A stretch of 64,000 nucleotides of DNA from Amycolatopsis pithecellobii (GTDB lineage Bacteria > Actinomycetota > Actinomycetes > Mycobacteriales > Pseudonocardiaceae): assembly GCF_009707865.1 (NCBI RefSeq), contig NZ_WMBA01000025.1:1-64000 (forward strand). Reading direction: 5' to 3'. The position numbers and the translations under genes were made by a program. Below, one piece after another: positions 65-31,034 of the stretch; within the stretch, counting starts at the first letter, position 1, and each line of letters starts with the position of its first letter. The notes beneath the pieces were generated by a model, which worked only from the letters and a program-made list of their open reading frames with translations, made no database searches and was not told the origin of the DNA.

Positions 65-146
65 GGCGGGTTGCCCGAGCGGCCAAAGGGATCTGACTGT
101 AAATCAGACGGCACTGCCTTCAGAGGTTCGAATCCTCTACCCGCCA
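65..146 (+). tRNA. tRNA-Tyr (GUA)
   Basis: The acceptor stem pairs 65-71 (GGCGGGT) with 139-145 (ACCCGCC). The anticodon stem is 92-96/104-108 and the loop carries GTA at 99-101. The long variable arm is that of a class II tRNA, as expected for bacterial tRNA-Tyr. The T-arm motif GGTTCGAATCC is intact. CCA is not encoded. Everything from position 96 onward is inside the integrated element's attachment repeat, so the 3' half of this working tRNA is supplied by the element. Confidence 0.97.
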
Positions 147-148
147 CA
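96..148 (+). repeat. att repeat, tRNA side (53 bp)
   Basis: This is identical to 30982-31034; the flanking base differs on each side (G versus A to the left, G versus C to the right). It spans the anticodon loop to just beyond the tRNA 3' end, the usual core for tRNA-targeting tyrosine recombinases. Confidence 0.93.
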
Positions 149-258: not shown

Positions 259-1794
259 TCACACCGCCCGTCCGGCGCCCTTGCGTGGAGTCGCTGCCCG
301 GACGGTCGTCGTTATCGCCCGAGTCATCTCATCGGCGGTCGCGCCATACTCCTCGGTGACCTTCTGGTTGGCGTGGCCAGCACCCGCGCTGACTGCCTTC
401 AGCGGCTGACCCGACGCGAGCGCAGTCGTCACCCAGTAGCGCCGCAACCCGTGGACCGTAACGGGTGGCAGGTCGGCCTTCCTCACCATCCGCACATGCG
501 CGTCGTACAACCTGTCCGGGTTCAGGTGGCTGCCGTCCATCCGGCAGAACACCCTGCCCGAGTCGACCCATGCCGTCCCGATCGCCAGCCGGTTCCGGGC
601 CTGCTGTGTCCGCAACCGCCGCAAGTCGGCTACCGCCCCAGAGTCGAGCGCGACGCGACGGTTCCCAGCGTCGGACTTGACCGGTCCTTCCTCCACCTTG
701 CCTTCGATCACGACGAGCTGGACCTGAACGTCTACGTAGCCCTCGTCCAGGTTCACGTCCTCGTCCCAGCGCATCCCGCACAGCTCGCCCCGTCGCAGCC
801 CGGTGAAGGACGCGAAGTTGAGGGCTTCGTACACGGCTTCCTCTTCGCGTTCGGTCTCGACCTCGCCCGCGACGAAGTCCAGATACTGGCCGGTCTGCTC
901 GGGAGTCCACACCATTTTCGAGTGCGGCACCTCACCAGTCCGACGCCACTTCGCCACAAGGTCAGCGCTCCACAACGTCGGCTTCGGCGCTGCTCCCGAT
1001 TCCAGCTCAACGAGAGAGAAGGGGTTGGGTCCGCTCACGGTGCCAGCCCGGAGACCGTCGTTGTATGCCTTCCTGCCGGTCGCCCGGATCCGCTGAAGCG
1101 TGGCAGGTCCGGCGACGCGCCGCAGCTCGCGCTTCACGCCGGCCGCCTTCTCGGCCTTGGTGAGGTTCTGGTGCCGCTTGCCTCGCGGGTTGATCGCCAA
1201 CGACTGCCGGATGCGCTCGTTCTGCTCCTCGATCGCCCGGAACATCTCGGCCACGTCATCCACCGACAACTCGCGCCACTTGATCTTCCCGAGGTGCGGA
1301 ACCAAGTAGTTGTCGACGTGCCCGGTGTACGACACGAGCGTGTTCCTGCGGACCTTCCTGGTCTTCAGCCATGCGGTCAAGGCGTCGCTGGTGGTCTGCG
1401 AGGTGATCCCCATGCGTCGGGTCTTCGCGCTGGCACCCTTCGCCTCGATCTTGGCGCGCTCGTTCTTCGCCTCGGTCTTGCTCCTGAAGCCACCCTTGCG
1501 GATCCGCTGCCGATCCTTGCCCGAACCGCGGGGCGCGGCCACGTCGATCTGGTACGCCCACAAGCCGTGCTTGCCGTCCCATTCCCACAGGGCGCGGCCC
1601 TCGTCGTCCACCTTCAACTGGCCGGCCGCGTCGAACTGGAGCTTGACCAGCTTCGGGCAACGCATCCCCAACTCACGACGGCGACCGTCCGCGCCGACCT
1701 TGGTGCAGCCACAGCGTTTGTAGAGCCCTGAGTCTTTCGGGGCGAGCTTCAGCGTTCGTCTGTCGACTTCGACGCCTTGGTCATTCTTGCTCAT
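259..1794 (-). CDS. int: Tyrosine-recombinase integrase
   Basis: This 511-aa protein should integrate and excise the element at tRNA-Tyr. An N-terminal arm-binding/SAM-like region precedes a C-terminal catalytic domain. Visible catalytic motifs are TGLRRGEL (first Arg near residue 334), HGLRR (near 448), AGAGH (near 470) and the nucleophile Tyr in EEYGA (near 483). The ATG at 1794 was chosen because GGAAGG lies about 8 nt upstream; 27 further in-frame residues upstream look non-coding. It faces the tRNA and its start overlaps the end of the XRE gene by 14 nt, so the two are probably co-transcribed. A long open frame on the opposite strand is a GC-bias artefact. Confidence 0.96.
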   Translation of the reverse strand: MSKNDQGVEVDRRTLKLAPKDSGLYKRCGCTKVGADGRRRELGMRCPKLVKLQFDAAGQLKVDDEGRALWEWDGKHGLWAYQIDVAAPRGSGKDRQRIRKGGFRSKTEAKNERAKIEAKGASAKTRRMGITSQTTSDALTAWLKTRKVRRNTLVSYTGHVDNYLVPHLGKIKWRELSVDDVAEMFRAIEEQNERIRQSLAINPRGKRHQNLTKAEKAAGVKRELRRVAGPATLQRIRATGRKAYNDGLRAGTVSGPNPFSLVELESGAAPKPTLWSADLVAKWRRTGEVPHSKMVWTPEQTGQYLDFVAGEVETEREEEAVYEALNFASFTGLRRGELCGMRWDEDVNLDEGYVDVQVQLVVIEGKVEEGPVKSDAGNRRVALDSGAVADLRRLRTQQARNRLAIGTAWVDSGRVFCRMDGSHLNPDRLYDAHVRMVRKADLPPVTVHGLRRYWVTTALASGQPLKAVSAGAGHANQKVTEEYGATADEMTRAITTTVRAATPRKGAGRAV

Positions 1795-2476
1795 GACGAT
1801 CACCTTCCAAGTAGGCAAGCTGTGGCCACAGCATCGGCGGAACCAAGTCATTGGCACGCATCTCTTCCCGTACACGGCGCAGCGAACGTTCGTTGTCCAC
1901 TACCAGGTCCTGAGTCAGGGTCACGGCCAGCTCATGGCCTGCTTGCGCGTTCGGATCTGCGGTCGCGCCTGACTTTTCGAAACCAGCCCTTTCCTGTTGG
2001 GCTGACCAGAGCTGTGCGCGTGCGTCGACCAGACGATTGGACCAACGTTCATGGTCACGGAATAGAGCGACGGTTCGAGTGCCGTCCCGATCTGGTGCTA
2101 CACCGTGCCACTCCTCTGGCCCTTCAGGAATCGTGGGGGGCTCTTCCTCGCCGGCGAACCACTTCAGGGCTAGCCACGGATCCATGCGGATCCCGGGCAG
2201 AACCTCGAATTTATCCGTGCGTCCCAACGGACTCAGCAATAGGACCGGAGGCACCTCCAGGGCGCGGGCGATCACCAGCAACTCAGCGAGGCTGATCGTG
2301 GGTCGTCGTCCGTTCTCAAAGTTCGACAGCACAGTACGGGGGATCGGCGAGCCTAGTTCCGCCGTGGCATCGGAAAGGCGTTGGGCGCTCATCTTCCGCA
2401 GCTTGCGATGCCGCTTCACCTCGCCGGCCACAACCCTCGCGAACCGTTTGGGCCATTCCTCATCATTTTGGGTCAC
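1781..2476 (-). CDS. XRE-family regulator upstream of int
   Basis: This protein of about 231 aa has an N-terminal helix-turn-helix near residues 15-75 (KMSAQRLSDATAEL ... RTVLSNFENGRRPTISLAELLVIARAL) and a C-terminal region without recognised motifs, possibly for oligomerisation. The GTG at 2476 fits a leaderless transcript, because a TATTGT -10-like hexamer ends 6 nt before it; a longer in-frame extension exists but crosses the promoter region. It is coupled to int and divergent from the excisionase-like gene, the position of an immunity or induction repressor. The function is inferred from domain and position. Confidence 0.8.
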   Translation of the reverse strand: MTQNDEEWPKRFARVVAGEVKRHRKLRKMSAQRLSDATAELGSPIPRTVLSNFENGRRPTISLAELLVIARALEVPPVLLLSPLGRTDKFEVLPGIRMDPWLALKWFAGEEEPPTIPEGPEEWHGVAPDRDGTRTVALFRDHERWSNRLVDARAQLWSAQQERAGFEKSGATADPNAQAGHELAVTLTQDLVVDNERSLRRVREEMRANDLVPPMLWPQLAYLEGDRHEQE

Positions 2477-2561
2477 AGCGGAACAATACACGGACTGTTT
2501 GACACGCAACAACCCGAACTGTACTGTTTCGACATGACCCCAAACGACAGGAGTCTGAGTC
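2477..2561. promoter_or_regulatory. Divergent promoter between XRE and xis-like genes
   Basis: On the plus strand, TTGACA (2499-2504), a 17-bp spacer and TACTGT (2522-2527) form a near-consensus promoter for the rightward operon, and AGGAG at about 2549 serves the GTG at 2562. On the minus strand, TATTGT lies at 2488-2483. The direct repeats ACTGTTTGACA and ACTGTTTCGACA overlap both and are candidate operators for the XRE protein. Confidence 0.65.
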
Positions 2562-2801
2562 GTGAAGACCCAAAGTGGGATGAGTAGGGCGGAGATCATG
2601 GCGCTGCCAGCCATGACCGACCTCGTTACTGCTGGTCGTGCGTGTCGCCTCGGTCGCACGAAAAGCTACGAATTGGCACGGGCGGGAGAGTTTCCCGTCC
2701 CGGTGCTCCGACTGGGTTCCTCGTACCGAGTCGCAACCGCCGATATCCTGCGATTTCTTGGCCTGGTGGACGATGCGGAGCCCGAAAAGCCAGCGGCATG
2801 A
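2562..2801 (+). CDS. Excisionase-like HTH_17 protein
   Basis: This 79-aa protein is essentially a single winged-helix excisionase domain: LVTAGRACRLGRTKSYELAR, then GEFPVPVLRLGSSYRVATADILRFLGL. This is the pattern of AICE and phage Xis proteins, which bend DNA next to att and direct Int toward excision. The GTG start has AGGAG 9 nt upstream. It is the first gene of the rightward operon. It is one of four HTH_17 proteins on this element, so which is the true Xis is uncertain. Confidence 0.8.
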   Translation: MKTQSGMSRAEIMALPAMTDLVTAGRACRLGRTKSYELARAGEFPVPVLRLGSSYRVATADILRFLGLVDDAEPEKPAA

Positions 2802-4224: not shown

Positions 4225-4520
4225 CCGAGGAGATCAATGTTCCTGTTGGAGAGCTACGGCTCCTACGTGTCGACGCGCACGCATTCCGGCTCCTTCGGCA
4301 GATCGACCGCTTCGGGGACGTGCTTCACGAACTACTCGACACCAACGAACTCGTCCGACTTACCGAGGCAAACACGGCACTCGAAGAGGTGGTTCGGTAT
4401 CGCGCCAACCAGGTGACCAACCTGCGCAACCGGTTTGACAAGCCTGCGCTTTCGCCGCTCCAGATCCGAGAGCAAGTCGAAAACAGCTGGCGCAAGTACG
4501 GTATGAAAGGCGCGGCGTGA
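4221..4520 (+). CDS. Hypothetical protein in replication module (99 aa)
   Basis: This small, predominantly helical protein is likely coiled (FRLLRQIDRFGDVLHELLDT, LVRLTEANTALEEVV) and I recognise no family. It overlaps its upstream neighbour (ATGA) and the downstream ATPase (GTGA), which implies translational coupling and joint function. Confidence 0.7.
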   Translation: MTEEINVPVGELRLLRVDAHAFRLLRQIDRFGDVLHELLDTNELVRLTEANTALEEVVRYRANQVTNLRNRFDKPALSPLQIREQVENSWRKYGMKGAA

Positions 4521-5854
4521 CCGACGATAACGAGGCCCCGCGCCTGCCGAACTACAGCAGGGACCTTTTCAGGATGAACCCGGTCCTTGGCACGGTGCGG
4601 GAACACGCCCACAGCCGCATCGCGTCCGCTGACGCGGTGCTGCTGGCCACCCTCGTCATCGTGTCAGCGTCCATCCCCGGCGGTATCACGATCGACTCCG
4701 GCATGGCAGCCAACGTCACGCCCGGTCTGTTCGCCGCGATCTGCGGCCCATCAGGATCCGGCAAAACAAGCTCTGAGCGGGTCGCTCGCGACCTAATCCG
4801 CGGACCGGCACCACTCACCCTCGCCACCGGAGAAGGGATGTTGGAGAGCTTCTACGGCGAGGTCGAGACCAGTGAGGTCGACGCCCGCGGGAACGAGGTC
4901 AGCCGCCGCATCCGGACACGCACCAAAACGAACGCGTTGTTCATCGTCGGCGAGGGCGCGAACTTCTACGCCGACCTGAATCGCGAGAACAGCAAACTCG
5001 GCGGCATCATCCGCGACTTCTGGTCGGGCACAGACATTGGCACCACGAACGCATCGGCGGAGCGGAATCGCAATCTGGAGGCCGGCACCTATAACGGCGG
5101 CTTGATCATCGGGTTGCAGACCGGGATCGTCGGGGACCTCATCACTGACACCACCACAGGCACCGCGCAACGGTTCCTCTGGGCATCCGCGACCGATCCC
5201 ACGATCGACCCGAACGCCCACCTCTACAGGGGTGCCTTGTTTGACCCGCCCACCATCGACTTGACGGTCGAGGGCAAACCGATCATCGACGACCTGCGGA
5301 TCACGGTTGTGGACGACATCTACCGCGAGCTGCTGGACAACAAGCTGCGCATAAACCGCGGCGACGTGCAGATCAATGAGCACGACTCACAGCGGCCCGT
5401 CATGTTGCTGAAGATCGGCGCGACCCTGGCGTGGATGAATGGCAGGCTGCGGATCAACAGCGAGGACTGGGAACACGCGAAGTACCTGCTCGGCGAATCC
5501 AACAAGGTGCGTGATGCCTTGATCGAGGCTGCCGAGGAGACCGCGATGGAAGCGGTGGCGAAGGAAGGTAGTCGTATCGCCGCTGTGCGTGCCGCTGCCG
5601 ACAGTCGCCCCGAACGGCTACGTCGCGTGCGGACCCGCATCCTCGAAATGCTGAATGCCAGTACGGAGCCGATGTCACACGGCACCCTCCGGGCGGGCAT
5701 CAGCCGTCGCGGAAATCTGCGCGAGCTGTTCCCCGAAGCCATCGAATGGCTGCTGAACACGCAACCGCCCGCGATCGTGCGTCACGAAACCCCGAACGGA
5801 AACAAGTACGCACTGTCACTAGCGGGGAGGAGGGCGTTGGAGAATGCGGCCTGA
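4517..5854 (+). CDS. P-loop ATPase, DUF3987-like replication protein
   Basis: This 445-aa protein has a Walker A motif GPSGSGKTSS near residues 77-86 and a Walker B-like hydrophobic strand ALFIVGEGANF. Conserved-looking blocks follow (FWSGTDIGTTNAS, GGLIIGLQTGIVGDLI), and a winged-helix-like C-terminus begins near residue 370 (RVRTRILEMLNASTEPMSHGTLRAGI). The arrangement resembles DUF3987/phage-helicase-like proteins of integrated elements. The iteron/AT-rich region follows immediately, so a role as replication initiator or helicase is likely but inferred. No primase-polymerase motif was seen in it. Confidence 0.75.
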   Translation: MTDDNEAPRLPNYSRDLFRMNPVLGTVREHAHSRIASADAVLLATLVIVSASIPGGITIDSGMAANVTPGLFAAICGPSGSGKTSSERVARDLIRGPAPLTLATGEGMLESFYGEVETSEVDARGNEVSRRIRTRTKTNALFIVGEGANFYADLNRENSKLGGIIRDFWSGTDIGTTNASAERNRNLEAGTYNGGLIIGLQTGIVGDLITDTTTGTAQRFLWASATDPTIDPNAHLYRGALFDPPTIDLTVEGKPIIDDLRITVVDDIYRELLDNKLRINRGDVQINEHDSQRPVMLLKIGATLAWMNGRLRINSEDWEHAKYLLGESNKVRDALIEAAEETAMEAVAKEGSRIAAVRAAADSRPERLRRVRTRILEMLNASTEPMSHGTLRAGISRRGNLRELFPEAIEWLLNTQPPAIVRHETPNGNKYALSLAGRRALENAA

Positions 5855-6160
5855 AACGACCAAACCTTGGTCGGGGACCAACCCATTTGACCTGCGCTTG
5901 GTCGCCTTGGTCGGGTTGGTCGCCCCCCCTGTGTCGGACCCGGGATCGCGACTACACACAGTCACTCTCTATATAAGAAAGAGTATTTACTTACTACAAC
6001 TAAATAAATTTTGTTCTGTGTGTATAGGGAAAAGCGCTTCGGAGGGGATCCGAGACACCCCCCGACCAACCCGACCAACCCGACCAACCCAGCTCTGACC
6101 TGCGAAAACAGACGACCAAGGGTGACCAACCTTGGTCGCCCACGACCAACCCACGAGGGG
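5855..6160. other. Candidate replication origin: inverted iterons flanking an AT-rich core
   Basis: The left arm (5858-5923) holds four TTGGTCG units plus GACCAA copies. The right arm (6062-6150) holds three exact tandem CCGACCAAC units (6062-6088) followed by further GACCAA/TTGGTCG units. Between them, 5951-6030 is about 30 percent GC (24 G or C of 80) and contains TACACACAG (5953-5961) and its complement CTGTGTGTA (6016-6024). An AT-rich unwinding stretch between inverted initiator repeats directly after an ATPase gene is the layout of an iteron origin. No coding sequence fits the region. Confidence 0.7.
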
Positions 6161-6544: not shown

Positions 6545-7000
6545 ATGGCCGGAGACACCGTCATCACCGTGGTCGGCAACCTGACCGCCGATCCTGAACT
6601 CCGCTTCACCCCAAGCGGGGTGGCGGTCGCAAACTTCACGGTCGCTTCGACTCCTCGCGCTTTCGACAAGGCGACAGGGGAGTGGAAAGACGGGGAACCG
6701 CTCTTCCTCCGATGCAACGTTTGGAAGTCTGCCGCTGAGAACGTCGCCGAAAGCCTCACAAAGGGGACCCGCGTCATCGTCACCGGCCGCCTCCAGCAAC
6801 GCAGCTACGAGAAAGACGGCGAGAAGCTGACCAGCTACGAACTGACCGTGGACGAGATCGGTCCGTCGCTGCGTTACGCCACCGCCAAGGTCAACAAGGT
6901 CAGCCGCAGCAGTGGAGGCAACACCACGGCCACAGACGACCCGTGGGGCGGCAAGCCAGCCAGCAGCGGCGGCGGATTCGCCGACGAGCCGCCCTTCTAG
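6545..7000 (+). CDS. ssb: Single-stranded DNA-binding protein
   Basis: This 151-aa protein has a typical OB fold (residues 1-110: [58 protein letters not shown]). A Gly/Ser-rich linker follows, then the acidic tip DEPPF that recruits host replication proteins. It coats single-stranded DNA during element replication. AAGGAG precedes the ATG. An element-borne SSB beside an origin supports autonomous replication of the excised form. Confidence 0.97.
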
Positions 7001-9809: not shown

Positions 9810-10349
9810 ATGCAGTGCACCGCGACCGTGAGAAGCACCGGCCAGCAGTGCCGTAAGAGCGCGATTGCCGGGGCGCAGGTGTGCCGCTCGCACGGTGGCG
9901 CGGCCCGTCAAGTGAAGGCTGCCGCAGCGCGCAATATGCTGGAGCAGCAGGCCCGACAGTTGTGGGCGAAGACCGTGCACGCTCCCGTGAATGATCCGCT
10001 GTCGGAGCTGGCGAAACTGGCCGGCGAAGTGCTGGCCTGGAAACAGCTACTTAAGGACAAGATCGGTGAGTTGACCACTGTTGGCTACCGGGGCATGACC
10101 AGCGAGCAGATCAAGAGCGAGGTGGTCTTGTACAACACGGCGGTCAGTCAGCTCACGACTGTGCTGACGGGTATCGCGAAGCTCAACATTGATAGCCGCT
10201 TGGCCGCGATCAGTGAGAAGCAGGCGGCGGTTGTGATCGCCGCCCTCGAAGCTGGTCTGGATGCTGCGGGCATTGACCACAGTGGCCGGTTCCGGGCGAG
10301 GCAGGCCGCTGCTCGTCATCTTGAGCTTGTGCGTTCGGAGGCGTCATGA
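9810..10349 (+). CDS. HGG-motif protein, small-terminase-like
   Basis: This 179-aa protein has an N-terminal Cys-rich head (MQCTATVRSTGQQCRKSAI, then VCRSHGGAARQVK) followed by helices. From general knowledge of actinophage genomes, proteins with this Cys/HGG head often lie next to terminase genes and are taken as small terminase or DNA-recognition subunits; the assignment is tentative. AAGGAGG precedes the ATG. The next gene overlaps (ATGA). No large terminase is present nearby. Confidence 0.55.
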   Translation: MQCTATVRSTGQQCRKSAIAGAQVCRSHGGAARQVKAAAARNMLEQQARQLWAKTVHAPVNDPLSELAKLAGEVLAWKQLLKDKIGELTTVGYRGMTSEQIKSEVVLYNTAVSQLTTVLTGIAKLNIDSRLAAISEKQAAVVIAALEAGLDAAGIDHSGRFRARQAAARHLELVRSEAS

Positions 10350-10597
10350 ACTGGCTGGATCACGTCATCGACCGTCTCAGCCCCGAGCTGGTTCCTGTTT
10401 CGCCGGAAGTGACTGCGGGTCTGCTGCCCCTGATGAACTTGATTCGGAGGGCTCGGGGTGAGCGTCAGTTGACGCTGGCGGAGGAGTTGGCTCGTCCCCG
10501 TGGTCGTGTGGACCCGGAAGAGTTGGCTCGCCTTATCGATGAGGCTCGGGCTCGTGTGGCTCGGGATGAGGCCGAGCTCATCCGTGGCAGCGTGTGA
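10346..10597 (+). CDS. Hypothetical protein (83 aa)
   Basis: This small helical protein (LLPLMNLIRRARGERQLTLAEELA, ELARLIDEARARVARDEAEL) is translationally coupled to the HGG protein. No family is recognised. It is the last gene before two tandem terminators. Confidence 0.65.
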   Translation: MNWLDHVIDRLSPELVPVSPEVTAGLLPLMNLIRRARGERQLTLAEELARPRGRVDPEELARLIDEARARVARDEAELIRGSV

Positions 10598-10691
10598 GAG
10601 GACAACATATCGCCGCAGCGGAAGATGACTTCCCCGTCCACCGTCTGATTTGGTATCCGACGGAAGGGTTGTTTCCGCTGCTCGCGGCATG

Positions 10692-10711
10692 TTCGGTGCC
10701 GTATCGGTGCC
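10692..10711 (+). repeat. Paired CGGTGCC motif, copy 2
   Basis: TTCGGTGCC at 10692-10700 is followed by ATCGGTGCC at 10703-10711, again with an 11-bp period. It lies in the 440-bp non-coding gap before the tape-measure gene. Confidence 0.5.
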
Positions 10712-10739
10712 ATCCTGGTTGCCATAACTGAAGACCTGT

Positions 10740-10772
10740 AGCCGCGACCGTGCCAACCGGTCGCGGCTTTCT
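10740..10772 (+). terminator. Terminator 1 before tape-measure gene
   Basis: The 11-bp perfect stem AGCCGCGACCG (10740-10750)/CGGTCGCGGCT (10758-10768) is followed by TTCTC. Confidence 0.75.
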
Positions 10773-10783
10773 CATGCCCCGTA

Positions 10784-10813
10784 AGACCCCACCGAAAACG
10801 GTGGGGTCTTTTT
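10784..10813 (+). terminator. Terminator 2 before tape-measure gene
   Basis: The 11-bp perfect stem AGACCCCACCG/CGGTGGGGTCT has an AAAA loop and a TTTTT tail. Together with terminator 1 it insulates the tape-measure gene from everything upstream. Confidence 0.88.
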
Positions 10814-10917
10814 CAAGCTACGTCCCGGCGGACTGAACCACGACCAATCACCACGTGTCGGGCGTGACCTCATGGAGGCCGAAAGTGCTTCGAGGCCTCC
10901 TGGAGAACCGCCCGGAA

Positions 10918-10999
10918 GCATGTGATGCCTCATCAAATGCCCCTATTTCTAATGGTCCTGACCAGCAGGTTTTCGAGCCCGTATCACGTGATGTCACAG
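10918..10999 (+). ncRNA. Structured non-coding block A, related to 19446-19526
   Basis: This roughly 80-nt block shares ordered landmarks with 19446-19526: TGATGCCTCATCAAATG, CCTGACCAGCAGG and ATCACGTGAT. Short hairpins TGAT/ATCA and CCTG/CAGG are preserved with compensatory or wobble changes in the other copy. It lies between the tandem terminators and the tape-measure start. It could be a structured RNA, a leader or a DNA site; the type is inferred. Confidence 0.4.
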
Positions 11000-11039
11000 G
11001 ATCTTCGGCCGCGTGGACCATCTACTGAAAGGAGCCGAT

Positions 11040-14000
11040 ATGCCCGAGGGTGTGGAGATCGGCAAGGCCTATGTGGTCGTCAACCTGGACGACCAGACCG
11101 CCGCTGACTATGACCGGATCAAGTCGAACCTTGAGCGTCGTGGTGATGTCACGATCAGGGCGAAGGTCGAGACCAGCGGCAAGGATCCGGTCGCACCGGT
11201 TCGGGAGAAGGTAAAGAAGTCCGCTCCGGTCGACATTTCGACCCGTGCGGACAATCCGATCGATGCAGCGTGGCGCAAGCAGGTTCAGGCGTCGATCCGG
11301 TCTATCTCGACGGATGCGTTGAAGATCCCTGTCACTCCGGAGACGGCGCAGTACCGGGCGCAGCTTGTGGCTGAGGTTACGAAGCTTCAGTCGCAGGTGA
11401 AGCAGCAGATCCCCGCGGATGTTGCGGAAGCGGCGAAGTTCCGGGCCTCGGTTGAGGCGTTGGCGAAGTCGACGCAGGAGCAGGCCAAGCTTCACATCCC
11501 AGTCGATGTGGACTCCGCTCCCGCGAAGCAGGCGTTCAAGGATGTCGCCGACTCTGCGGAGAAGGAATCGAACCGCGCTAAGTCGGCGGCGAACAGCGCC
11601 GCTCGCGGTTCTGCGACCGTGTTCGCGGCCATGTTCGCTGGCATGCCTGCCGCCGCAGCTACGGCGGGCGTTGCGACTACCGCCGCGTTGGCGGCTGTGC
11701 CTACCGCGTTCGTTGCTGCCGGTGCGGTGGCGTTGAAGGAGAACCGGCAGGTCGCGGATTCGTGGCGTGGTCTCGGGGCGAGTGTCAAGGAGGAGGCTGC
11801 GTCGTGGGCGCAGCCTCTCGCAGGACCGTTTGTGGAGTCGGCTGGTCAGATCCGGGGCACGCTGACGCAGTTGTCACCGCAGATCAGTAGTGCGTTCGCG
11901 AACTCCGCGCCCGCAGTCGGGATCTTGACGGGCGCGGTGGATGACTTCGCTGTACGGGCGATGCCAGGGCTCGTGCAGGCATCCGCGACCTCGACTCCAG
12001 CATTGCTGGGGATCCGTTCGGCGGCGGGCTCGGCCGGTGCTGGTGTCACTGACTTCTTCACCACAGTGTCGACAGGTGCGCAGGGGTCTCAGCAGATCCT
12101 CACCACCAGCGGGCACATCATCCAGGATTTCGAGGGTTTCGCTGGTTCCCTGTTCGCGAACCTCGCGAACAACGGAAACCCGACATTGCAAGCGTTCCGC
12201 ACCGTGTTGCAGGAGGGTGAACAAACCCTTCTCACGCTGACCCAGAACGGGTCGTCGGTCTACAACTTTTTCCAGGGTGTGGGCAGCGGCGCGTCAGGTG
12301 CGTTGTCAGTGCTTCGTGGTGTGGCGTCGGTCGCTGCTGCGTTGCCGGCCCCGGTCACACAGTTCGGTGGTTCCCTCACCGCGACCGCGTTGTTGGCGCA
12401 ACGGTTCGGGGTGAATGTCGGGGCGTCGTTCGACGGTATCGGCGGCAAGATCAAGAGCGCGTATCGGGAGGGGGACACCTTCGGGTCGAAGATCAAAGGT
12501 GTCGCTGGGGAAATTGGCCCGGCCCTGTTCAACCCCACGACGTTGGCTGTTTCTGGGGTTAGTGCGGCGTTGATGGTTCTGGGGCAGCAGGAGCAGCAAG
12601 AGGCGCAGGCCAAGGCCGCGAATACTCAGGTCACCAACGATTACGTGTCTGCGTTGCGTGCGTCTCAGGGGGCGATTGACGCGAATGTGCGGGCCTCGGT
12701 GGCGCGGGATTTGGCGCAGAAGGCGTCGGGTGGCTCGGGTAAGTCTGTGCTCGACTATGCCCAGCAGTTCGGGATCGCGTTGCCGCGGGTGACCGATGCC
12801 GTGTTGGGCAATAAGCAGGCCATGGATGAGATCAACGCCGTGCTGGAGAAGTACATCCAGCAGGGCGGTGAGGTTGGTTTGCAGGCTGCCGCGGAGAAAG
12901 CGGCAATTGTGAATAAGACTGGTCTTTTCCGTGATTCGACGCAGGCGCAGCAGGCGGAGGCTACGGCTGCGTCTGGGGTTGCGGCTGCGACAGCCAGCGC
13001 GACTGCGGCGTTCGTGTCGAATGCGGATGCGTTGGGGAAGCAGTTGGCGGTGGCGAATGCGCAGGCGTCGATCAGTGATCGGTTGTCGCAGGCGAATCAG
13101 CAGGCGGCGCAGGCTATGCAGTCGGTGGCGTCGGCGCAGCATTCGGCGGCCCAATCCGCGCAGGGGGTGGTGAACGCCCAGCATTCGGTGGAGCAGGCCC
13201 AGCGGGGTGTTACGTCGGCGAATGAGGCGGTGGCGAACGCGCAGCATTCGGTGACGCAGGCGCAGCGGTCGTATCGGGACGCGTTGGCGGGTGTCACGTC
13301 GGCGGAGCGGTCGTACACACAAGCCCAGGACGAGGCCCGCACGGCCCAACTCGATTTGAACCGGGCCCGGGAACAGGCGATCCAGGACTTGAAGGACCTG
13401 CACCTGCAAATGGCCGACCAGGTGGTGTCGGTGGGACAGGCGCAGCTGGGCTTGTTTGATGCGCAGCAGAACGCCGCAGGTAAGGGCATCACCCTGGCGA
13501 ATGCTGAGGCGGTTTCGCAGGAGCAGGTGACGGCGGCGAACGAAGAGCGGATCAAGGTCGCCCTGGATCTGCTGGCCGCGCAGAACCAGCTCAACGACGC
13601 CCAGAACCAGAACACGAAGCTTCAGAAGCAGGTCGCGGACGCGGACGCTGCTGGGGTGGAAGGTTCGTCGTCGGTCATCGGCGCGAAGAAGGCGTTAGCG
13701 GAGGCGAATGACCAGGTCACCTCGGCCGCCGACGCGGTGACGGCGGCGCAGCAGCAGGTCACTGAGGCGAACTGGGGTTTGCAGCAAGCCGACATCGCGT
13801 TGCGGAACGCCCACCAGGGCGTCAAGGACGCGGCCTGGTCGTTGCAGCAGGCCCAATTGGGGGTGCGGGATGCGCAGTGGTCCCAAACTCAGGCGTCGTG
13901 GCAGTTGCGGGGCGCGCAGGATCAGTTGACGACCGCCTACAACGCGTCGTCTACCTCGATGGATGTGAATACTGCTGCGGGGCGCCAAAACCTGGGTGCC

Positions 14001-15161
14001 TTGGTGGCGTTGTGGGGCGCGATCAAGGATCAGGGAGGCCCTGTCCAGGAGCAGTACAAGAAGCTCATCGACGATACGGCTGCCGCGTTTGGTTGGTCGA
14101 CGCAGCAGGCCCAGGCGTTCCTGGAGAAGGAAAACCTGATCCCGAAGGACTTCAGGTACTCGGTCACCGCGGTTGCCCAGGCCAACTTTGACGACCTGAA
14201 CCGGGTTTACAACGACAAGTTCGGTGGACGGATCGGGCCTGTCTCCCAGAACGTGGCTCACGCGTTCGCGACCGGCGGTCTCTTCCGAGGTGTCGGTGGC
14301 CCCCGGGAAGATGCGAACCTCGCGTGGCTATCGGACCAGGAGTTCGTGCAACCCGCTGACGCGGTGGACCACTACGGGGTCGGTTTCATGGAGGCGGTGC
14401 GCACGAAGCGGTTCCCGAAGGGTGGGGATGGGGCTTCGCTGCCGGGGTTCGCACGCGGCGGGTTGTACGAGTCGGAGAACGTGAACTACTTCCTGTCGGG
14501 TGCTGGCACCGCTTACCAGTCGGCGGTGAACACTCTGGACGCCATGGCGTTTCCGCATCCGCCCGGTCTGCCGGCGTATGTCGCACCCGCCGCAGCCGCC
14601 GCGTTCGGCAACGTCTCCGTGTCCGCGGCTCGGGGCTCGAACCGGGACATCGTGCTCAATACCTGGCGCCAGTTCGGATGGACCTCACCGGAACAGGTCA
14701 ACGCCACCGACTACCTGTTGATGCGGGAGTCCAGCTACAACAACGTGGCCCAGAACCCGACGAGCACAGCCTATGGAATGTTCCAGTTTCTGAACTCGAC
14801 GTGGGGCGGCTACGGGGTTCCCAAGACCTCGGATCCGGCGTTGCAGGCCCTAGCGGGTGGCCGGTACATCCAGTCCCGTTACGGGGATCCGATCGGTGCC
14901 GCCGCGCACGAGCGGGCGTTCAACTGGTACGACCAGGGCGGCTACATGCTGCACAACCCCGGCCTGAACACCACTGGGAGACCGGAGATGGTGTTGCCGC
15001 CGGGGTTGACCGAGACGTTGACGGCGTTGAATGAGGCGTTCCAGTCGGGTCGCGTTGGCGGGTCAGGTGGCGTGTCGGTGGTGAACAACGTCCACGCCAG
15101 GAGCGATGCGGACGAGATCGCGGAAAAGATCACTCGCGAAATCACGTGGGCGTTGCGGTGA
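11040..15161 (+). CDS. Phage tail tape-measure protein with lytic transglycosylase domain
   Basis: This 1373-aa protein has the siphophage tape-measure architecture. A charged N-terminus is followed by Ala-rich hydrophobic segments near residues 190-240 (FAAMFAGMPAAAATAG) and 500-520. A long Ala/Gln coiled coil spans about residues 650-970 (repeated AQ.S...AQ units), and an SLT/lysozyme-like domain about 1195-1290, with catalytic Glu1230 in MRESSYNNVAQNPTSTAYG and then MFQFLNSTWGG. In phages it sets tail length and helps DNA cross the cell wall. AAAGGAG precedes the ATG. No tail tube, chaperone or minor tail genes flank it, which is very unusual. A conjugation-related muralytic role is an alternative. 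Confidence 0.9.
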   Translation: MPEGVEIGKAYVVVNLDDQTAADYDRIKSNLERRGDVTIRAKVETSGKDPVAPVREKVKKSAPVDISTRADNPIDAAWRKQVQASIRSISTDALKIPVTPETAQYRAQLVAEVTKLQSQVKQQIPADVAEAAKFRASVEALAKSTQEQAKLHIPVDVDSAPAKQAFKDVADSAEKESNRAKSAANSAARGSATVFAAMFAGMPAAAATAGVATTAALAAVPTAFVAAGAVALKENRQVADSWRGLGASVKEEAASWAQPLAGPFVESAGQIRGTLTQLSPQISSAFANSAPAVGILTGAVDDFAVRAMPGLVQASATSTPALLGIRSAAGSAGAGVTDFFTTVSTGAQGSQQILTTSGHIIQDFEGFAGSLFANLANNGNPTLQAFRTVLQEGEQTLLTLTQNGSSVYNFFQGVGSGASGALSVLRGVASVAAALPAPVTQFGGSLTATALLAQRFGVNVGASFDGIGGKIKSAYREGDTFGSKIKGVAGEIGPALFNPTTLAVSGVSAALMVLGQQEQQEAQAKAANTQVTNDYVSALRASQGAIDANVRASVARDLAQKASGGSGKSVLDYAQQFGIALPRVTDAVLGNKQAMDEINAVLEKYIQQGGEVGLQAAAEKAAIVNKTGLFRDSTQAQQAEATAASGVAAATASATAAFVSNADALGKQLAVANAQASISDRLSQANQQAAQAMQSVASAQHSAAQSAQGVVNAQHSVEQAQRGVTSANEAVANAQHSVTQAQRSYRDALAGVTSAERSYTQAQDEARTAQLDLNRAREQAIQDLKDLHLQMADQVVSVGQAQLGLFDAQQNAAGKGITLANAEAVSQEQVTAANEERIKVALDLLAAQNQLNDAQNQNTKLQKQVADADAAGVEGSSSVIGAKKALAEANDQVTSAADAVTAAQQQVTEANWGLQQADIALRNAHQGVKDAAWSLQQAQLGVRDAQWSQTQASWQLRGAQDQLTTAYNASSTSMDVNTAAGRQNLGALVALWGAIKDQGGPVQEQYKKLIDDTAAAFGWSTQQAQAFLEKENLIPKDFRYSVTAVAQANFDDLNRVYNDKFGGRIGPVSQNVAHAFATGGLFRGVGGPREDANLAWLSDQEFVQPADAVDHYGVGFMEAVRTKRFPKGGDGASLPGFARGGLYESENVNYFLSGAGTAYQSAVNTLDAMAFPHPPGLPAYVAPAAAAAFGNVSVSAARGSNRDIVLNTWRQFGWTSPEQVNATDYLLMRESSYNNVAQNPTSTAYGMFQFLNSTWGGYGVPKTSDPALQALAGGRYIQSRYGDPIGAAAHERAFNWYDQGGYMLHNPGLNTTGRPEMVLPPGLTETLTALNEAFQSGRVGGSGGVSVVNNVHARSDADEIAEKITREITWALR

Positions 15162-15231: not shown

Positions 15232-15276
15232 GCCCCCGGCTCTTTCCACTTTCGGAGAGAGCCGGGGGCCCCTTTT
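15232..15276 (+). terminator. Terminator after tape-measure gene
   Basis: GCCCCCGGCTCT (15232-15243) pairs with AGAGCCGGGGGC (15258-15269), followed by CCCTTTTT. Transcription therefore stops right after the tape-measure gene, which makes it a single-gene unit. Confidence 0.88.
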
Positions 15277-20252: not shown

Positions 20253-20720
20253 TCACTTCTTCTTCGGGCTGTCCGAGCATCCCTGGTGGCACTGGTGGCA
20301 GTCCTGCTTGCACTCGGCATGGACGCCGGGCCACAGGTCGAGGTCCACGCTGTAGCCGGCGGCCTCGATGGCTGCCAGGGTCCGCCGCCGCGTCTCGCTG
20401 ATCTCGCCACGGTCAAGAGTGGCCGGTTCGGTTGGTTCGTGATGCAGGAACCGGCCCGCGACATCCTGGCAGAACAGGGCGTAGGCACGGGTGTGGAGCA
20501 GGAACGTGTGCCACCCGATGTCAACGAGTGGGCTGGGCGCTAGGGGTTCGCCGTGGTCCCTGGCGCATGCCGCGAGGAATGCGAGTGCCTGATCCATGAC
20601 GCGGGTAGCGAGCGGTCGAGTCATGTCTTCGTCGCGCACGATCCGGTCGACAAGGCGATCGAACAGTTCCGCGTTGATCAGTGAGTGGCTGGGCCGGGCC
20701 TGGTTTATAGCGGTGGGCAT
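20253..20720 (-). CDS. Glycine-rich-domain-like protein
   Basis: This is a 155-aa protein. The central motif VDIGWHTFLLHTRAYALFCQ, then GRFLHHEPTE, is the His-containing helical signature of glycine-rich-domain-containing proteins. A Cys-rich tail ends it (CKQDCHQCHQGC). AAGGAGAG precedes the ATG at 20720. The function is unknown; it is operonic with the methyltransferase. Confidence 0.75.
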   Translation of the reverse strand: MPTAINQARPSHSLINAELFDRLVDRIVRDEDMTRPLATRVMDQALAFLAACARDHGEPLAPSPLVDIGWHTFLLHTRAYALFCQDVAGRFLHHEPTEPATLDRGEISETRRRTLAAIEAAGYSVDLDLWPGVHAECKQDCHQCHQGCSDSPKKK

Positions 20721-20800
20721 GGCTCTCCTTCATCTTTTGTGACCGATATGAGGACCCGGTCGGCGACGATGGGTCGGGGCGGCCGTCGCCGACCGGGCGT

Positions 20801-21007
20801 TTAGGGGCGTGGGGATCGAGCGAGGCAGGCTTCGCAGGGCATGCCGCCCACGGTGTCGAGTAGTTCGAGTTGGTGCGGGCCGAATGCGGCACCGCAGTAG
20901 GCGGTGATGGTGTCTGGGGTCGTGGGCTCGGGAAACAGGTGCGCCACCCGCCGGGTTTCGCCGACTGTGCCGGGAAGGGGGCGGGCGATGAACAACCAGG
21001 CGCTCAT
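20801..21007 (-). CDS. Small zinc-motif protein (68 aa)
   Basis: ITAYCGAAFGPHQLELLD leads to GMPCEACLA, a small actinobacterial zinc-knuckle-like protein. Its ATG overlaps the stop of an even smaller upstream gene (ATGA). Confidence 0.65.
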   Translation of the reverse strand: MSAWLFIARPLPGTVGETRRVAHLFPEPTTPDTITAYCGAAFGPHQLELLDTVGGMPCEACLARSPRP

Positions 21008-21123
21008 CGTCGGTAGACCTTCGGCCAGCCGTTCGCCTGGTTCATCACGACGATTACGCGCTGTGCCGTGTGGTGGTGCTTTGCCCCTGCCTTCCACCGT
21101 TCGATCACTCGCCGTAATTGCAT
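21004..21123 (-). CDS. 39-aa basic protein
   Basis: Reading from the ATG at 21123 gives a 39-residue basic sequence (MQLRRVIERWKAG, then RVIVVMNQANGWPKVYRR) that ends in an ATGA overlap with the next gene. The coupling and balanced composition support it. No Shine-Dalgarno is visible; a -10-like element about 10 nt upstream would fit leaderless expression. Confidence 0.55.
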   Translation of the reverse strand: MQLRRVIERWKAGAKHHHTAQRVIVVMNQANGWPKVYRR

Positions 21124-21133
21124 GGGAACACGT

Positions 21134-21139
21134 TAGAAT
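21134..21139. promoter_or_regulatory. Overlapping divergent -10 elements
   Basis: TAGAAT on the plus strand (ATTCTA on the minus) lies between the leftward 39-aa gene and the rightward XRE gene and could serve both. No convincing -35 was found. Confidence 0.4.
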
Positions 21140-21196
21140 CGCGCCGGTTTCGACAGAACGGACCAGCAGTACGAGTTGCGGCGGACCTCAACGGCG

Positions 21197-22336: not shown

Positions 22337-22344
22337 GAGAACAG

Positions 22345-22901: not shown

Positions 22902-22928
22902 CGATGACCCCGGCATCGCTGCGGGGAG

Positions 22929-25116: not shown

Positions 25117-27240
25117 CTAGTCGTCGTCATCGCTCACCTCCCTCTCGGCGAGCGCGTGACGGACACGTTCCGTGCGCACCATCGGATAGCCGCCCTGGCT
25201 TCCCCGTTTCACCCCGAGCGCTTCGAGCTGCGCCACCAGCGATTCACCGGTCAGTTCCCGATAGGGCGCGTAGCCGGGGGCGTGCTGCCGCAGGCGGCGC
25301 GGCACATCCGCGGCCCGAGCGTCCTTCCCGCCGAGCACCTGATCCACGTCAGTGAGCAAGTCCCGCTCGTCTGGGCTCGTGTCGGCCGTGTCGACCGCGC
25401 CACGCAACTGTTTCGCCTGGTCGGCGACCTCGACCGCGTCCTTGCCGCCGATGTAGTGGGTGCGCACCGTCTCCGACGTTTGGCCCTGCTGCGTCGGAAC
25501 ACCCATGCCGGTGACCACGACCGTGCCCTTGTGCTCCTGCTTCAACTCGTGCGGGGCGGCACCGTCGTTCACGGCGTTGTCGCCCAGCGCCATCCGCGAC
25601 TGCGACTCGCTACCCAGCTTCAGACCAGCGCGGATGTGCGCGCCCTCCCGGACCAGCTTCGGCAGGTTCTGGTCCGTGGGGTCCTGGGTTCCGTCCCACA
25701 GCAGCACGTTCACCGCACGCCCCTGGTTGTGGACCTTGCGGGCGGCGTTGAAGTAGCGACTGGTGTTGGACTTCCCGCCGTAGGGCTTCTTGTGCTCGTC
25801 CTTCTCCGGGCACATGAACGCGACCTGTTCTTCGTCCACGATCACGACGATGGGGTGGTATCCGGGCAGGCCAGGCGGCACACCGTCCGGGTGCTGCTCG
25901 GGGTCGAACCCCACCATGCGGCGTTCCATCTCATCGACCGCCGCTTCCAACATCTCGGTAGCCGAGATCACGTGCTCGTCGGTGGGGCCTTCGATGAGCA
26001 CGGTCGCCAAGCCCTGGAACATGTGCCAGTCCCCGAGGCCCTTCAAATCGGCGATTCGGAACTCCACGGTCGGGTCGAACGCCAGCCACAACGCCAGGGC
26101 GCGCAACGCGGCGGTCTTGCCCATGTTGGACAGGCCCGTGATGAGCAGGTGCTTTTGCCACAGGTTCAGACCGATCGGGTCGTCTCGCAGGTTCTTGCCC
26201 CACGGTGCCCGGTCGCGGAACATGCTGACCCGCGTCGGCGGTTCGGTGACCAGCGGAGACGGTTCGATCGGCTCATCCAGCGCACCCGAGTCCGCGATCC
26301 ACAACAGGACACTGCGGGCACGCTTCGGGATCGTGATGAACAGCTCGTGTTCGTGCCGGCCCATGTTCTCCGCGAGGCGTTTCCGCCGCTTCTGGATGTC
26401 CTCTGTGGAGATGCTGGAGGGCAGCTGTACCTGCACTTCCACGCCCGGACCAGCCAGGGTGATGGGGGACAACATGCCCGCGCCCGCGTCGTCCATCGCG
26501 TCGATCAGCTTCCGCAGCTGCGACATCCCCAGATCACGCAATGCCTTCACCACGATGGACGGGGTAACGACCTCGGTGTCCTGCTTCCGCTCGTCCGCGG
26601 TCATCAACCAGGTCGGTGGGGTGCCGCGACGTTTCCCTTCCCGGTACGCGCCCCACGAGATCAGGAACGGCAAGGCAATCAAGAACGGGGTCCACGCGAT
26701 CGCGATCGCGGAGATGATCCACCCGAACACATCCAGCACCCCGAGTACGACCGCCCCGAACTGGCCCCCGGTCAGCTGCGCAACCAGACCGGACACGAGC
26801 ACGATGACGACCAGAGCGGCGACGCTGCCGACGCCGACCAGCGCGAAGCCCAGCGCGATCTTAGGGACTTCCTTGATGCGCTGGAACCGACGCTGGACGG
26901 CGGCCTCTTTGCGGTCCAGCCAGTCGGTCAGGGCTTCCCGGTCGCCCCGGAGTTCGGCGGCTGTGATCTGCCTTCGGTAGACGCCCATGGTGGTCGCGTC
27001 CCAGATGCGCACCGCCCACGACCGGTAGCCCGCGCCGACCGTGTACAGCTGCCGACCGGTCTTGCGGACAACGAACTGGGTGCGGTCGTCCTTGGCGACC
27101 CGCACCACGGTTCCGCCCACACGACGCACCAGCGCGGCGGGTGGCCGGCGGGCGGGTAGCCCTGCGGCGTGGTTGAAACGGTCGGATTCACCGTCGTGGT
27201 CGTCGTCGACCAGTTCACCGACGATCGGATGGGTCGTCAC
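25117..27240 (-). CDS. traB: FtsK/SpoIIIE-type conjugal translocase (TraB)
   Basis: This is a 707-aa protein. Two membrane segments lie near residues 130-205 (IALGFALVGVGSVAALVVIV, then VVLGVLDVFGWIISAIAIAW). The motor domain has Walker A GLSNMGKTAA near 370, Walker B IVVIVDEEQVAF near 465, and NQGRAVNVLLWDGTQDPTDQNLP. A C-terminal winged-helix-like region (ELTGESLVAQLEALG) may bind DNA. In actinomycetes one such hexameric protein moves double-stranded DNA between hyphae. It overlaps the upstream DUF2637 gene by 4 nt. Confidence 0.93.
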   Translation of the reverse strand: MTTHPIVGELVDDDHDGESDRFNHAAGLPARRPPAALVRRVGGTVVRVAKDDRTQFVVRKTGRQLYTVGAGYRSWAVRIWDATTMGVYRRQITAAELRGDREALTDWLDRKEAAVQRRFQRIKEVPKIALGFALVGVGSVAALVVIVLVSGLVAQLTGGQFGAVVLGVLDVFGWIISAIAIAWTPFLIALPFLISWGAYREGKRRGTPPTWLMTADERKQDTEVVTPSIVVKALRDLGMSQLRKLIDAMDDAGAGMLSPITLAGPGVEVQVQLPSSISTEDIQKRRKRLAENMGRHEHELFITIPKRARSVLLWIADSGALDEPIEPSPLVTEPPTRVSMFRDRAPWGKNLRDDPIGLNLWQKHLLITGLSNMGKTAALRALALWLAFDPTVEFRIADLKGLGDWHMFQGLATVLIEGPTDEHVISATEMLEAAVDEMERRMVGFDPEQHPDGVPPGLPGYHPIVVIVDEEQVAFMCPEKDEHKKPYGGKSNTSRYFNAARKVHNQGRAVNVLLWDGTQDPTDQNLPKLVREGAHIRAGLKLGSESQSRMALGDNAVNDGAAPHELKQEHKGTVVVTGMGVPTQQGQTSETVRTHYIGGKDAVEVADQAKQLRGAVDTADTSPDERDLLTDVDQVLGGKDARAADVPRRLRQHAPGYAPYRELTGESLVAQLEALGVKRGSQGGYPMVRTERVRHALAEREVSDDDD

Positions 27241-28487
27241 TGGTCAGCCCCCGCTTCCGATGGTTGGGGCTGCAACCGGTCGAGCAGTCGGGAGGCCCGA
27301 CCGGATCCGACCGACAGGGCCTTCATCACGGCGGTCCGGGACGGCAGTTCACCCCCGACCGGTCGGGGCATTTCACGTAACTGGTCGAGGAGTTCATCGT
27401 CGGACCGGTCGGCCCGACCGGTCGACTTTTTCCGCCTCGACCGGTCGGGCCTCGGTCGGGGTTTCGCACCCCCGACCGGTCGGGGTTTCAGTGGGGCGAC
27501 CGGTCGGGCATCGGTCGCCCCGACCGGTCCGACCGACTGGGCACCGCCAAGGGCGTCGATTGAACCGACCCCGTTGGCGTCGGTCGGCCCGACCGGTCGG
27601 GCCTCCTCGACATCGACCGGTCGGGCCTCGGTCAGGGTTTCGGGCGGCCGACCGGTCGGCGTGTCCGACCGGTCACCGCCAGGGGTACGGATAGCCTCCG
27701 TACCCTTCTCGTCCTCGGGTTCCTGCCGGTCAGGAGCGGCGGGCGTGGAGTTCGTCGGGGCCTCCGCTACCTCGGCGTCACGCCCATCCGCGCTCGGTGC
27801 GCTGAACTGCGGTTTTCCCGGAGGCCCATCGTGTTTCCGCAGGTCAACACCGACGACCGGCTTTTCCGTGTCTGGATGCTTGCCTGCGGCTTGAGGAGCG
27901 GCAGGTACCGGGCTCTGCCTGGTACCTGAACCGGGCTCTGCCTGGTCCAGTCCAACCGGCTGCTCGCCGCCAGGGGTGCGGCAGATCGCCGTACCCTTCT
28001 CGTCCTGCCCCTGGTCCAGCTCAACCATTGGGCTCTGCCCAACAGTGGCCGCGTCGGGAGCGGTGACTGCCTGCCGGTCGCTGACCATCGCCGCCACCAG
28101 ATGCACGGTGGTGACCAGTACGACCGGGGGCACCATCGCCACCACGGCGACCAGCCACCACGGCGGCACCACCTGGTAGGCCCTCAGGTAATGGTCGGTC
28201 GCGTTGCCGAGCACAGACAGCACGAGTGTGCCGACCGCGATCCTGCGGGCCTCCACGACCACCTCAGAGGACACCCGCGCCAACCACACGCGGGTCGCCA
28301 CCACAGCCGCCGCATCCAACGCCACCGGGAACAACCAAGCGAGGTTGCGGTGAGTGCCGCACACGATCGCCAAGTCCGTCAGCGACGTGAACGACAACAC
28401 CGCTGCGCCAGTCGCGACGGCCAACAATCCAAGCCAAGTCAGCACGCCGACACGTGGGCGGGCCGATCGGCCACTATCTTGCTTCAT
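27237..28487 (-). CDS. DUF2637 membrane protein (Spd-like) with repeat-rich tail
   Basis: This 416-aa protein has four membrane segments in the first 150 residues (VLTWLGLLAVATGAAVLSF, NLAWLFPVALDAAAVVATRV, WWLVAVVAMVPPVVLVTTVHLVAAM), the DUF2637 arrangement found beside transfer genes. Residues 150-416 are low-complexity, with recurring ARPV/PVG units encoded by an array of GACCGGTC palindromes. A short HTH-like end (LPSRTAVMKALSVGSGRASRLLD) closes it. The ATG at 28487 fits best. It is probably a transfer or spread membrane partner of TraB. Confidence 0.85.
   Translation of the reverse strand: MKQDSGRSARPRVGVLTWLGLLAVATGAAVLSFTSLTDLAIVCGTHRNLAWLFPVALDAAAVVATRVWLARVSSEVVVEARRIAVGTLVLSVLGNATDHYLRAYQVVPPWWLVAVVAMVPPVVLVTTVHLVAAMVSDRQAVTAPDAATVGQSPMVELDQGQDEKGTAICRTPGGEQPVGLDQAEPGSGTRQSPVPAAPQAAGKHPDTEKPVVGVDLRKHDGPPGKPQFSAPSADGRDAEVAEAPTNSTPAAPDRQEPEDEKGTEAIRTPGGDRSDTPTGRPPETLTEARPVDVEEARPVGPTDANGVGSIDALGGAQSVGPVGATDARPVAPLKPRPVGGAKPRPRPDRSRRKKSTGRADRSDDELLDQLREMPRPVGGELPSRTAVMKALSVGSGRASRLLDRLQPQPSEAGADQ
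27357..27674. repeat. Array of 11 GACCGGTC palindromes
   Basis: Eleven copies of the 8-bp palindrome GACCGGTC, mostly in the longer form CGACCGGTCGGGC, occur within 320 bp of the DUF2637 gene, with one more ACCGGT at 27276. No comparable cluster occurs elsewhere in the window. Spacings vary, so the array is not a simple tandem repeat. It may be a binding array embedded in coding DNA. Confidence 0.85.
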
Positions 28488-28560
28488 CGGGTCGGAAGCC
28501 TCTTTTCCGATCAAGTCCCTGGGTGGCGAGTGGAGTCGCCACCCAGGGGCGTCCAAATCC

Positions 28561-28996: not shown

Positions 28997-29024
28997 AGGT
29001 TCACCTCCTCGCGTTCAGGCCGGG

Positions 29025-30981: not shown

Positions 30982-31034
30982 ACTGTAAATCAGACGGCAC
31001 TGCCTTCAGAGGTTCGAATCCTCTACCCGCCACA
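30982..31034 (+). repeat. att repeat, right end (53 bp)
   Basis: This is an exact copy of 96-148: the displaced 3' half of the tRNA-Tyr gene, defining the right boundary of the element. Confidence 0.93.

Follow-up and report, generated by a model that had tools for sequence, protein, structure and literature searches.

The known systems closest to the element described here include the actinomycete integrative and conjugative elements (AICEs), which combine a tRNA attachment (att) site, an integrase (Int), an excisionase (Xis)-like gene, a TraB-type FtsK protein, DUF2637 and DNA-replication genes, and the satellites resembling phage-inducible chromosomal islands (PICIs), which typically measure about 10-18 kb. 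Our subject is an element with a lone tape-measure protein (TMP) that lies in a 64,000-nucleotide stretch of Amycolatopsis pithecellobii DNA (assembly GCF_009707865.1, contig NZ_WMBA01000025.1, positions 1 to 64,000), hereafter the window. As described in the parts of PMC12987554 (2026) on which we draw, the PICI-like elements (PLEs) of Vibrio cholerae, whose helper is phage ICP1, place their own TMP in virions from which the helper TMP is excluded, and transduction is reduced without the satellite TMP gene. According to its authors, no satellite family before the PLEs was known to build tails in this way, and the legend of Extended Data Fig. 10 gives putative tmp genes in some capsid-forming PICIs (cf-PICIs). 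Among actinobacterial satellites, MulchRoom has a lysogeny module, and the Mulch and Flayer satellites of Streptomyces carry genes for capsids and for packaging; the main text of that report, in the portion used here, does not contain the word "tape" (PMC10690885). No TMP-bearing satellite of Actinobacteria was among the matches listed in the literature that we searched, which did not extend to most subscription papers, to preprints on bioRxiv or to the supplementary files on PLEs in PMC12987554. A satellite with its own TMP has been known since 2026; as far as we have seen, what is apparently new here is the host group, the exchangeable parts and the presence of TraB in the same element.

The window element occupies positions 96-31034 (30,939 bp, about 30.9 kb) bounded by direct repeats of a tRNA-Tyr gene that match at 53 of 53 bp (96-148, the tRNA 3' end, against 30982-31034). 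We think it probable that we are dealing with a phage satellite whose own small terminase (TerS) serves its packaging and whose own TMP is the base for chimeric tails; that it is packaged, has a helper and forms such tails would here follow from gene content and from the analogy with PLEs. The TMP frame (11040-15161) is intact, PHROG tape-measure families match the 1373-residue product (best phrog_4197, 2.8e-38), and a domain model places the glutamate of a soluble lytic transglycosylase (SLT) domain at residue 1230. This agrees with the first-pass annotation of this DNA, which had described a complete TMP with that glutamate and a coiled coil, the latter seen by eye. The same annotation had suggested a phage satellite that redirects packaging, which the sibling elements described below support well.

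Like the PLEs, the window element is an integrated satellite encoding its own TMP, and two related elements (G173 and G194) also encode a tail-assembly chaperone. It differs from the PLEs in its actinobacterial host, in its phage relatives, which are of the siphophage type whereas that of the PLEs is contractile-tailed, and in having TerS but no recognised tail-assembly chaperone or hub gene. Chimeric tails are established for PLEs but predicted here, and the likeness is one of gene content. With PICIs of the SaPI type it shares Int, regulators, a replication gene, TerS and the lack of a capsid and tail set, and four siblings share their size of about 13-17 kb. It departs from them in its TMP, in the absence of any recognised protein of known interference or capsid-size function, and in its 30.9 kb with TraB, which is above the typical PICI-like range within which the four siblings (13.4-17.4 kb) fall. 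The cf-PICIs and Mulch/Flayer are satellites too, but they encode their own capsid, portal and terminase, whereas only TerS was recognised here. The listed AICE features are likewise present, with TraB-type FtsK, Int and Xis-like genes together within the tRNA-bounded element; towards a Rep of a known AICE class there were primase-type PHROG matches only. Unlike AICEs, however, the window element carries TerS and a TMP, and TraB was not recognised in eight of the ten related elements.

These relatives came from a model of the TMP N-terminus, which matched 27 of 390 genomes of the same bacterial family; annotation of the loci gave 29 TMP genes (G and L numbers are our handles for genomes and loci; gene calls throughout are from a simple in-house caller, and the start of the G217 TerS was set by hand). 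Nineteen of the genes lie in prophages or phage-like loci, in 17 of which other structural genes were labelled. L204 and L207 have a single such gene each; L202 (G166) lies on a broken contig, was labelled by a chaperone-like neighbour alone and was excluded from the tree described below; L199 (G292) was counted as phage-like though no neighbour matched structural references, and two of its genes resemble satellite genes, so that it may be misfiled. The other ten TMP genes are isolated in elements bearing an integrase or recombinase, namely those of the window, GM8 (Amycolatopsis sp. GM8, of the same genus as the window's host), G168, G217, G268, G185, G160, G220, G173 and G194, all from one bacterial family and related to each other. 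Eight of them have the integrase family of the window, and G173 and G194 have a serine-recombinase-like gene (identified by eye). Integrated elements with an isolated TMP, which the first-pass annotation had proposed to seek together with TraB, thus exist in the family, TraB being recognised only in the window and GM8. Chance isolation of a single TMP was considered and ruled out, because 10 of the 29 TMP genes stand isolated. When 394 genomes of the class were searched with the N-terminal TMP model, only the window's own genome matched.

The GM8 element (26.2 kb, att repeat 88%) also sits at tRNA-Tyr, and its TMP, integrase, TerS and small open reading frame (ORF) after TerS are 51%, 75%, 67% and 48% identical to those of the window. 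The G217 element is complete at 16.4 kb (att 52/53) and no TraB was recognised in it; that of G220 measures 13.4 kb, with att repeats of 43/43 at tRNA-Pro; those of G185 (17.4 kb) and G160 (16.5 kb) have att repeats of 22/23 and a common core. For G268, G173 and G194 the distal boundary was not located, and the 17-bp repeat of G168 is weak. PHROG does not see the TMP of G217 and sees that of G168 only weakly; we call both genes TMPs because they are homologous to the others. Satellite TMPs are full-length, and their resemblance to phage TMPs spans the whole protein.

Virion genes recognised in the ten satellites comprise the TMP (10/10), TerS (5/10), a tail-assembly chaperone (2/10) and a head protease (1/10). 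TerS is followed by the small ORF in the window, GM8, G168, G217 and G268. The chaperone adjoins the TMP in G173 (phrog_3860, 2.8e-20) and G194 (by homology), and none was recognised in the other eight. The head-maturation protease belongs to G220 (L206, 11543-12316, minus strand; 1.7e-81), in whose 13.4 kb satellite-like element no capsid genes were recognised; it is possible that this borrowed protease remodels a capsid. Prophage L200 gave the best match to the TMP of G220 and the second-best to its protease, while prophage L203 gave the best match to the TMPs of G173 and G194 and the second-best, behind L201, to their chaperones. These matches would fit, without proving, parts drawn from one helper lineage. 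A further virion gene may be present in G268, where an 82-residue protein beside the TMP has a match (4e-10) to an unlabelled member of the head module of prophage L196. An element from outside the family, G756 (L138), combines integrase, XRE, Xis-like and TerS genes with an isolated TMP that belongs to a different lineage (phrog_1272, 5.4e-53); the ends of this element were not found.

We next compared satellite and phage TMPs. The phage contig L152 (80.7 kb, of which 24 kb were examined) has TerL (large terminase), portal and, judged by position, capsid and tail genes, and its TMP is 53% identical to that of the window across residues 1-1373 and 66% identical to that of GM8. In a tree of 30 sequences (10 satellite, 20 phage) the two kinds interleave, with five label changes, at least four of which are forced by well-supported (starred) branches. 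The TMP of GM8 is sister to that of phage L152 and not to that of the window, and the TMP of G268 is sister to that of the G270 prophage (73%); both pairs are starred, the tree as a whole having drawn long-branch and composition warnings. Values of dN/dS were 0.14-0.34 for four satellite-satellite pairs, 0.22-0.39 for three satellite-phage pairs and 0.13-0.25 for two prophage pairs. The tree and dN/dS show that the TMP gene has been swapped more than once between satellites and phages and is maintained by purifying selection. Because dN/dS lies between 0.14 and 0.39, the satellite TMPs are not relics, and the decay, or absence from relatives, that the first-pass annotation had named as telling against its reading was not what we found: relatives hold the gene intact. 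The length of the satellite TMP is within 60 residues of the nearest phage TMP in our set, which may not be that of the helper, in 6 of 10 cases (window -33, GM8 +60, G268 -3, G220 -51, G173 -31, G194 -37); measured against the same kind of neighbour, with the same reservation as to the helper, the TMPs of G168, G160, G185 and G217 are 76-157 residues longer. These lengths bear on the first-pass suggestion that such a satellite might reset the tail length of a helper.

The 179-residue protein with an HGG motif encoded upstream of the TMP is assigned as TerS by synteny with TerL in phages, in line with its earlier description as typical of terminase neighbourhoods. PHROG by itself offered no more than a family of unknown function (phrog_3678, 6e-15) and a TerS match that is weak (8e-4). 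A relative directly precedes TerL in Microcystis phage Mae-JY09, and another lies about 2.3 kb before TerL in Glutamicibacter phage Montesquieu. A scan of viral contigs found 229 relatives, of which 80 were kept and 58 loci examined (L030-L087) after 22 weaker loci, most of them matching in the Cys/His N-terminus only, had been dropped. TerL, recognised by a three-seed model, lay downstream in 31 of the 58 (within 400 nt in 20), and of the other 27 the downstream gene was checked in 10 and was TerL by PHROG in all of them. A confident AlphaFold model of the protein (mean pLDDT 89, pTM 0.58) shows an N-terminal stretch with the Cys/His motif followed by four helices. The small protein encoded after TerS was assigned by cluster in four satellites and by a weak match (3.5e-5) in G268, and had no relative in the viral contigs or phage records searched.

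Among the 390 family genomes the TerS search matched seven, two of these through the N-terminus only, and led to G168, G217 and G268, which have the same gene set. The class-wide search found 26 places in 394 genomes, the window among them; TerL was recognised in three (L142, L145 and L146) of the 16 examined. L136 (G764), L147 (G536), L148 (G707) and L150 (G505) hold an HGG TerS with an integrase- or serine-recombinase-like gene and often a primase-like gene (the latter genes named by eye), and TerL was not recognised within the 15-20 kb examined of each; satellites with TerS may thus be common across Actinobacteria. Genome G085 has four matches to the Cys/His (HGG) N-terminus (L011 and L013-L015), three of them on one short contig.

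Further virion genes were then sought in the window element. Twenty-nine otherwise unidentified proteins matched 14 PHROG families, none of them named structural or packaging and several of unknown function, and for 41 element proteins, TerS apart, no structural or packaging family was among the 25 listed of 44 matched. Seven short ORFs (34-85 residues) lay outside these scans but inside a comparison with 733 proteins of phage-bearing loci (E 1e-4), in which only the TMP, TerS, the single-strand DNA-binding protein (SSB) and one 55-residue protein matched. No TerL was recognised in the satellites with the three-seed model or the phage-locus proteins, nor was a capsid, portal or TerL of its own recognised in the window element by PHROG, the TerL model or the phage-locus proteins. 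The earlier statement that portal, capsid, large terminase, tube and chaperone genes are lacking thus holds for what PHROG and the phage-locus proteins can recognise. Finally, the genome that contains the window, where a helper prophage with a matching tail had been thought worth looking for, gave no second match to the TMP query.

In the satellite reading, the element would sit integrated in tRNA-Tyr of Amycolatopsis-type actinobacteria and, on growth of a siphophage helper, would excise and replicate with the Int, Xis-like and replication-type genes seen in it. The helper would supply TerL, the capsid and the remainder of the tail; the satellite TerS would steer the helper's TerL to satellite DNA, and the satellite TMP would replace the helper's as the ruler for the helper tail tube, yielding chimeric tails by analogy with the Vibrio PLEs. 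The satellite may gain by evading defences aimed at the tail or by keeping out the tails of the helper, and the TraB/DUF2637 module may add conjugative movement. Several points weigh against this reading. The reading draws on genes, with helper, induction, packaging and particles as predictions, and the protein called TerS owes its identity to synteny. PLEs carry TMP and chaperone together, but a tail-assembly chaperone went unrecognised in the window element, which is also roughly double its siblings in size and carries TraB, unlike eight of the ten. A TerL of the L152 type was not found in the ten satellite genomes, in a search that had no positive control. An SPP1-type portal, present in the G217 and G268 genomes, is absent from that of the window; this empty answer means little, because the search also overlooked G197, in whose prophage a portal had been matched. 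Satellite labels are clustered in the TMP tree (five changes against a shuffle mean of 8.6, with 6 of 500 shuffles as low), therefore the exchange between satellites and phages was repeated but not frequent. Lastly, four of the nine pairs have a dS above 1 and so approach saturation.

Other explanations account for part of the same gene set. The satellite TMP could be a weapon that mis-assembles helper tails in a dominant-negative manner and protects the host, satellite particles using other means. Interference with tail assembly is reported for PICIs, P4-like satellites and prophages in the part of PMC11364771 consulted, and a chaperone was not recognised in eight of the ten elements, but full-length TMPs that are phage-like from end to end are more than an inhibitor needs, and TerS, chaperone and head protease point to particle making; we regard this as unlikely. 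An AICE in which TerS and TMP are incidental remains of a recombined or decayed prophage would explain the TraB, DUF2637, Int, Xis-like and SSB genes, and TraB is indeed close to a plasmid protein. It becomes quite improbable when set against the recurrence of an isolated TMP in ten elements, of which eight lack a recognised TraB, intact frames with dN/dS near that of the two prophage pairs, and retained virion genes that are few and of a sort that redirects assembly.

The first-pass annotation had also considered a conjugative element reusing the TMP as a wall-penetrating enzyme, its SLT domain serving as a cell-wall hydrolase for conjugation. SLT and TraB do co-occur in exactly two elements, the window and GM8. 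The SLT model, built from these two, a model of this domain and no other, matches only them and phages L152 and G211, so that two of the ten satellites score for it; the other eight elements keep a TMP in which it finds nothing, and a hydrolase needs no TMP of such length. Because the related phage TMP of L152 has the domain too, SLT came with the phage lineage, and we consider a role in conjugation very improbable. Even harder to credit is a TMP acting as an effector of a contractile injection system, of the Sle1/Tme type. TMP-like effectors of this kind exist in Actinobacteria (PMC13277306, in the part used here), but the known ones adjoin sheath genes and DUF4157 proteins, whereas the window TMP is homologous over its full length to that of a phage. 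Neither a sheath gene nor DUF4157 was found for the 29 proteins compared with PHROG, or among the 25 of 44 and 25 of 55 families listed for the element.

The presence of TraB and DUF2637 inside the same att pair as TerS and TMP suggests two transfer routes, so that the window element, on its gene content, could move by conjugation as well. The first-pass annotation had listed TraB, DUF2637 and SSB in one element, as the matches bear out (PF01580 2.9e-7, PF10935 1.9e-9, phrog_44 4.9e-48); its suggestion of a phage-plasmid hybrid stands only in so far as TraB lies inside that att pair. TraB is 46% identical over 92% to an FtsK/SpoIIIE protein of a 13.5 kb Streptomyces plasmid, and the two copies recognised among the ten elements, in the window and GM8, are 31% identical to each other; DUF2637-like proteins occur in five of the ten. 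A fuller proposal, which we advance tentatively and rate as rather doubtful, is that of a dual-route satellite that would travel by TraB conjugation through the mycelium and in hijacked particles between colonies with its own TerS and TMP, and would belong to an actinobacterial satellite lineage that acquires TerS, TMP, chaperone and head protease as interchangeable modules from one helper after another. In the GM8 element a second integrase-like gene (by eye), at 28090-29388 (minus strand) of the joined stretch of L002 with L016, lies beside TraB within one att pair; elements of this sort may owe their TraB portion to a second element at the same tRNA. At about 20534-23001 of that stretch are cargo genes for a precursor, an ATP-grasp protein and a PIMT-like methyltransferase, which look like a graspetide-type peptide cluster.

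The features of the window element are collected in Table 1; cargo genes also lie within it. The primase-type PHROG matches probably belong to the replication-type protein. Two details of the first-pass annotation held in part. Of the terminators said to insulate the TMP gene, the one 3' of it was recovered by a scan that gave three matches, below the shuffle mean of 4.3, and the two before it (about 10738-10813) were seen by eye and are not in the scan. For the putative iteron origin, a tandem repeat of 9 bp x 3.3 (6061-6090) was the only repeat found, and it is at most a candidate. Outside the right att repeat, a degenerate third tRNA-Tyr att copy (32335-32387) lies beside a transposase-like gene named by eye; this copy would be a sign of an earlier insertion at the site.

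Table 1. Features of the tRNA-Tyr element of the window, with positions in the 64,000-nucleotide stretch.
Feature	Position	Strand	Evidence or remark
tRNA-Tyr gene	65..147	+	ARAGORN; 3' end serves as integration site
Left att repeat, 53 bp	96..148	+	53/53 identity to 30982-31034
Tyrosine integrase, 511 aa	259..1794	-	PF00589 3.7e-16; 75% to GM8 and 63% to G217 element integrase (blastp)
XRE-type regulator, family c0	1781..2614	-	c0 found in 9/10 satellites and G756
Excisionase-like protein, family c3	2562..2801	+	excisionase families among element-protein matches
Replication-type protein	4517..5854	+	weak DUF3987 match
SSB	6545..7000	+	phrog_44 4.9e-48 and NCBIfam 3e-70 for one of 41 element proteins; gene assigned by eye
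HGG-motif TerS-type protein, 179 aa	9810..10349	+	homologues precede TerL in phages; in 5/10 TMP satellites
Small protein after TerS	10346..10597	+	directly 3' of TerS in 5/5 TerS-bearing TMP satellites
Lone TMP, 1373 aa	11040..15161	+	coiled coil (by eye), C-terminal SLT domain (Glu1230)
Intrinsic-terminator-like hairpin, 16 bp	15232..15269	+	3' of TMP gene; terminator scan
TraB-type FtsK/SpoIIIE translocase, 707 aa	25117..27240	-	PF01580 2.9e-7
DUF2637 membrane protein, family c5	27237..28487	-	PF10935 1.9e-9; c5 in 5/10 satellites
Right att repeat, 53 bp	30982..31034	+	53/53 identity to 96-148

If TMP-bearing satellites form a further lineage in a second group of hosts, with several TMP exchanges in nature, satellites would seem to target the tail ruler commonly. 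The exchanges between satellites and phages would offer a ready means of studying what enables a helper tail to accept a foreign TMP, and a conjugation module within a satellite would blur the boundary between AICEs and phage satellites.

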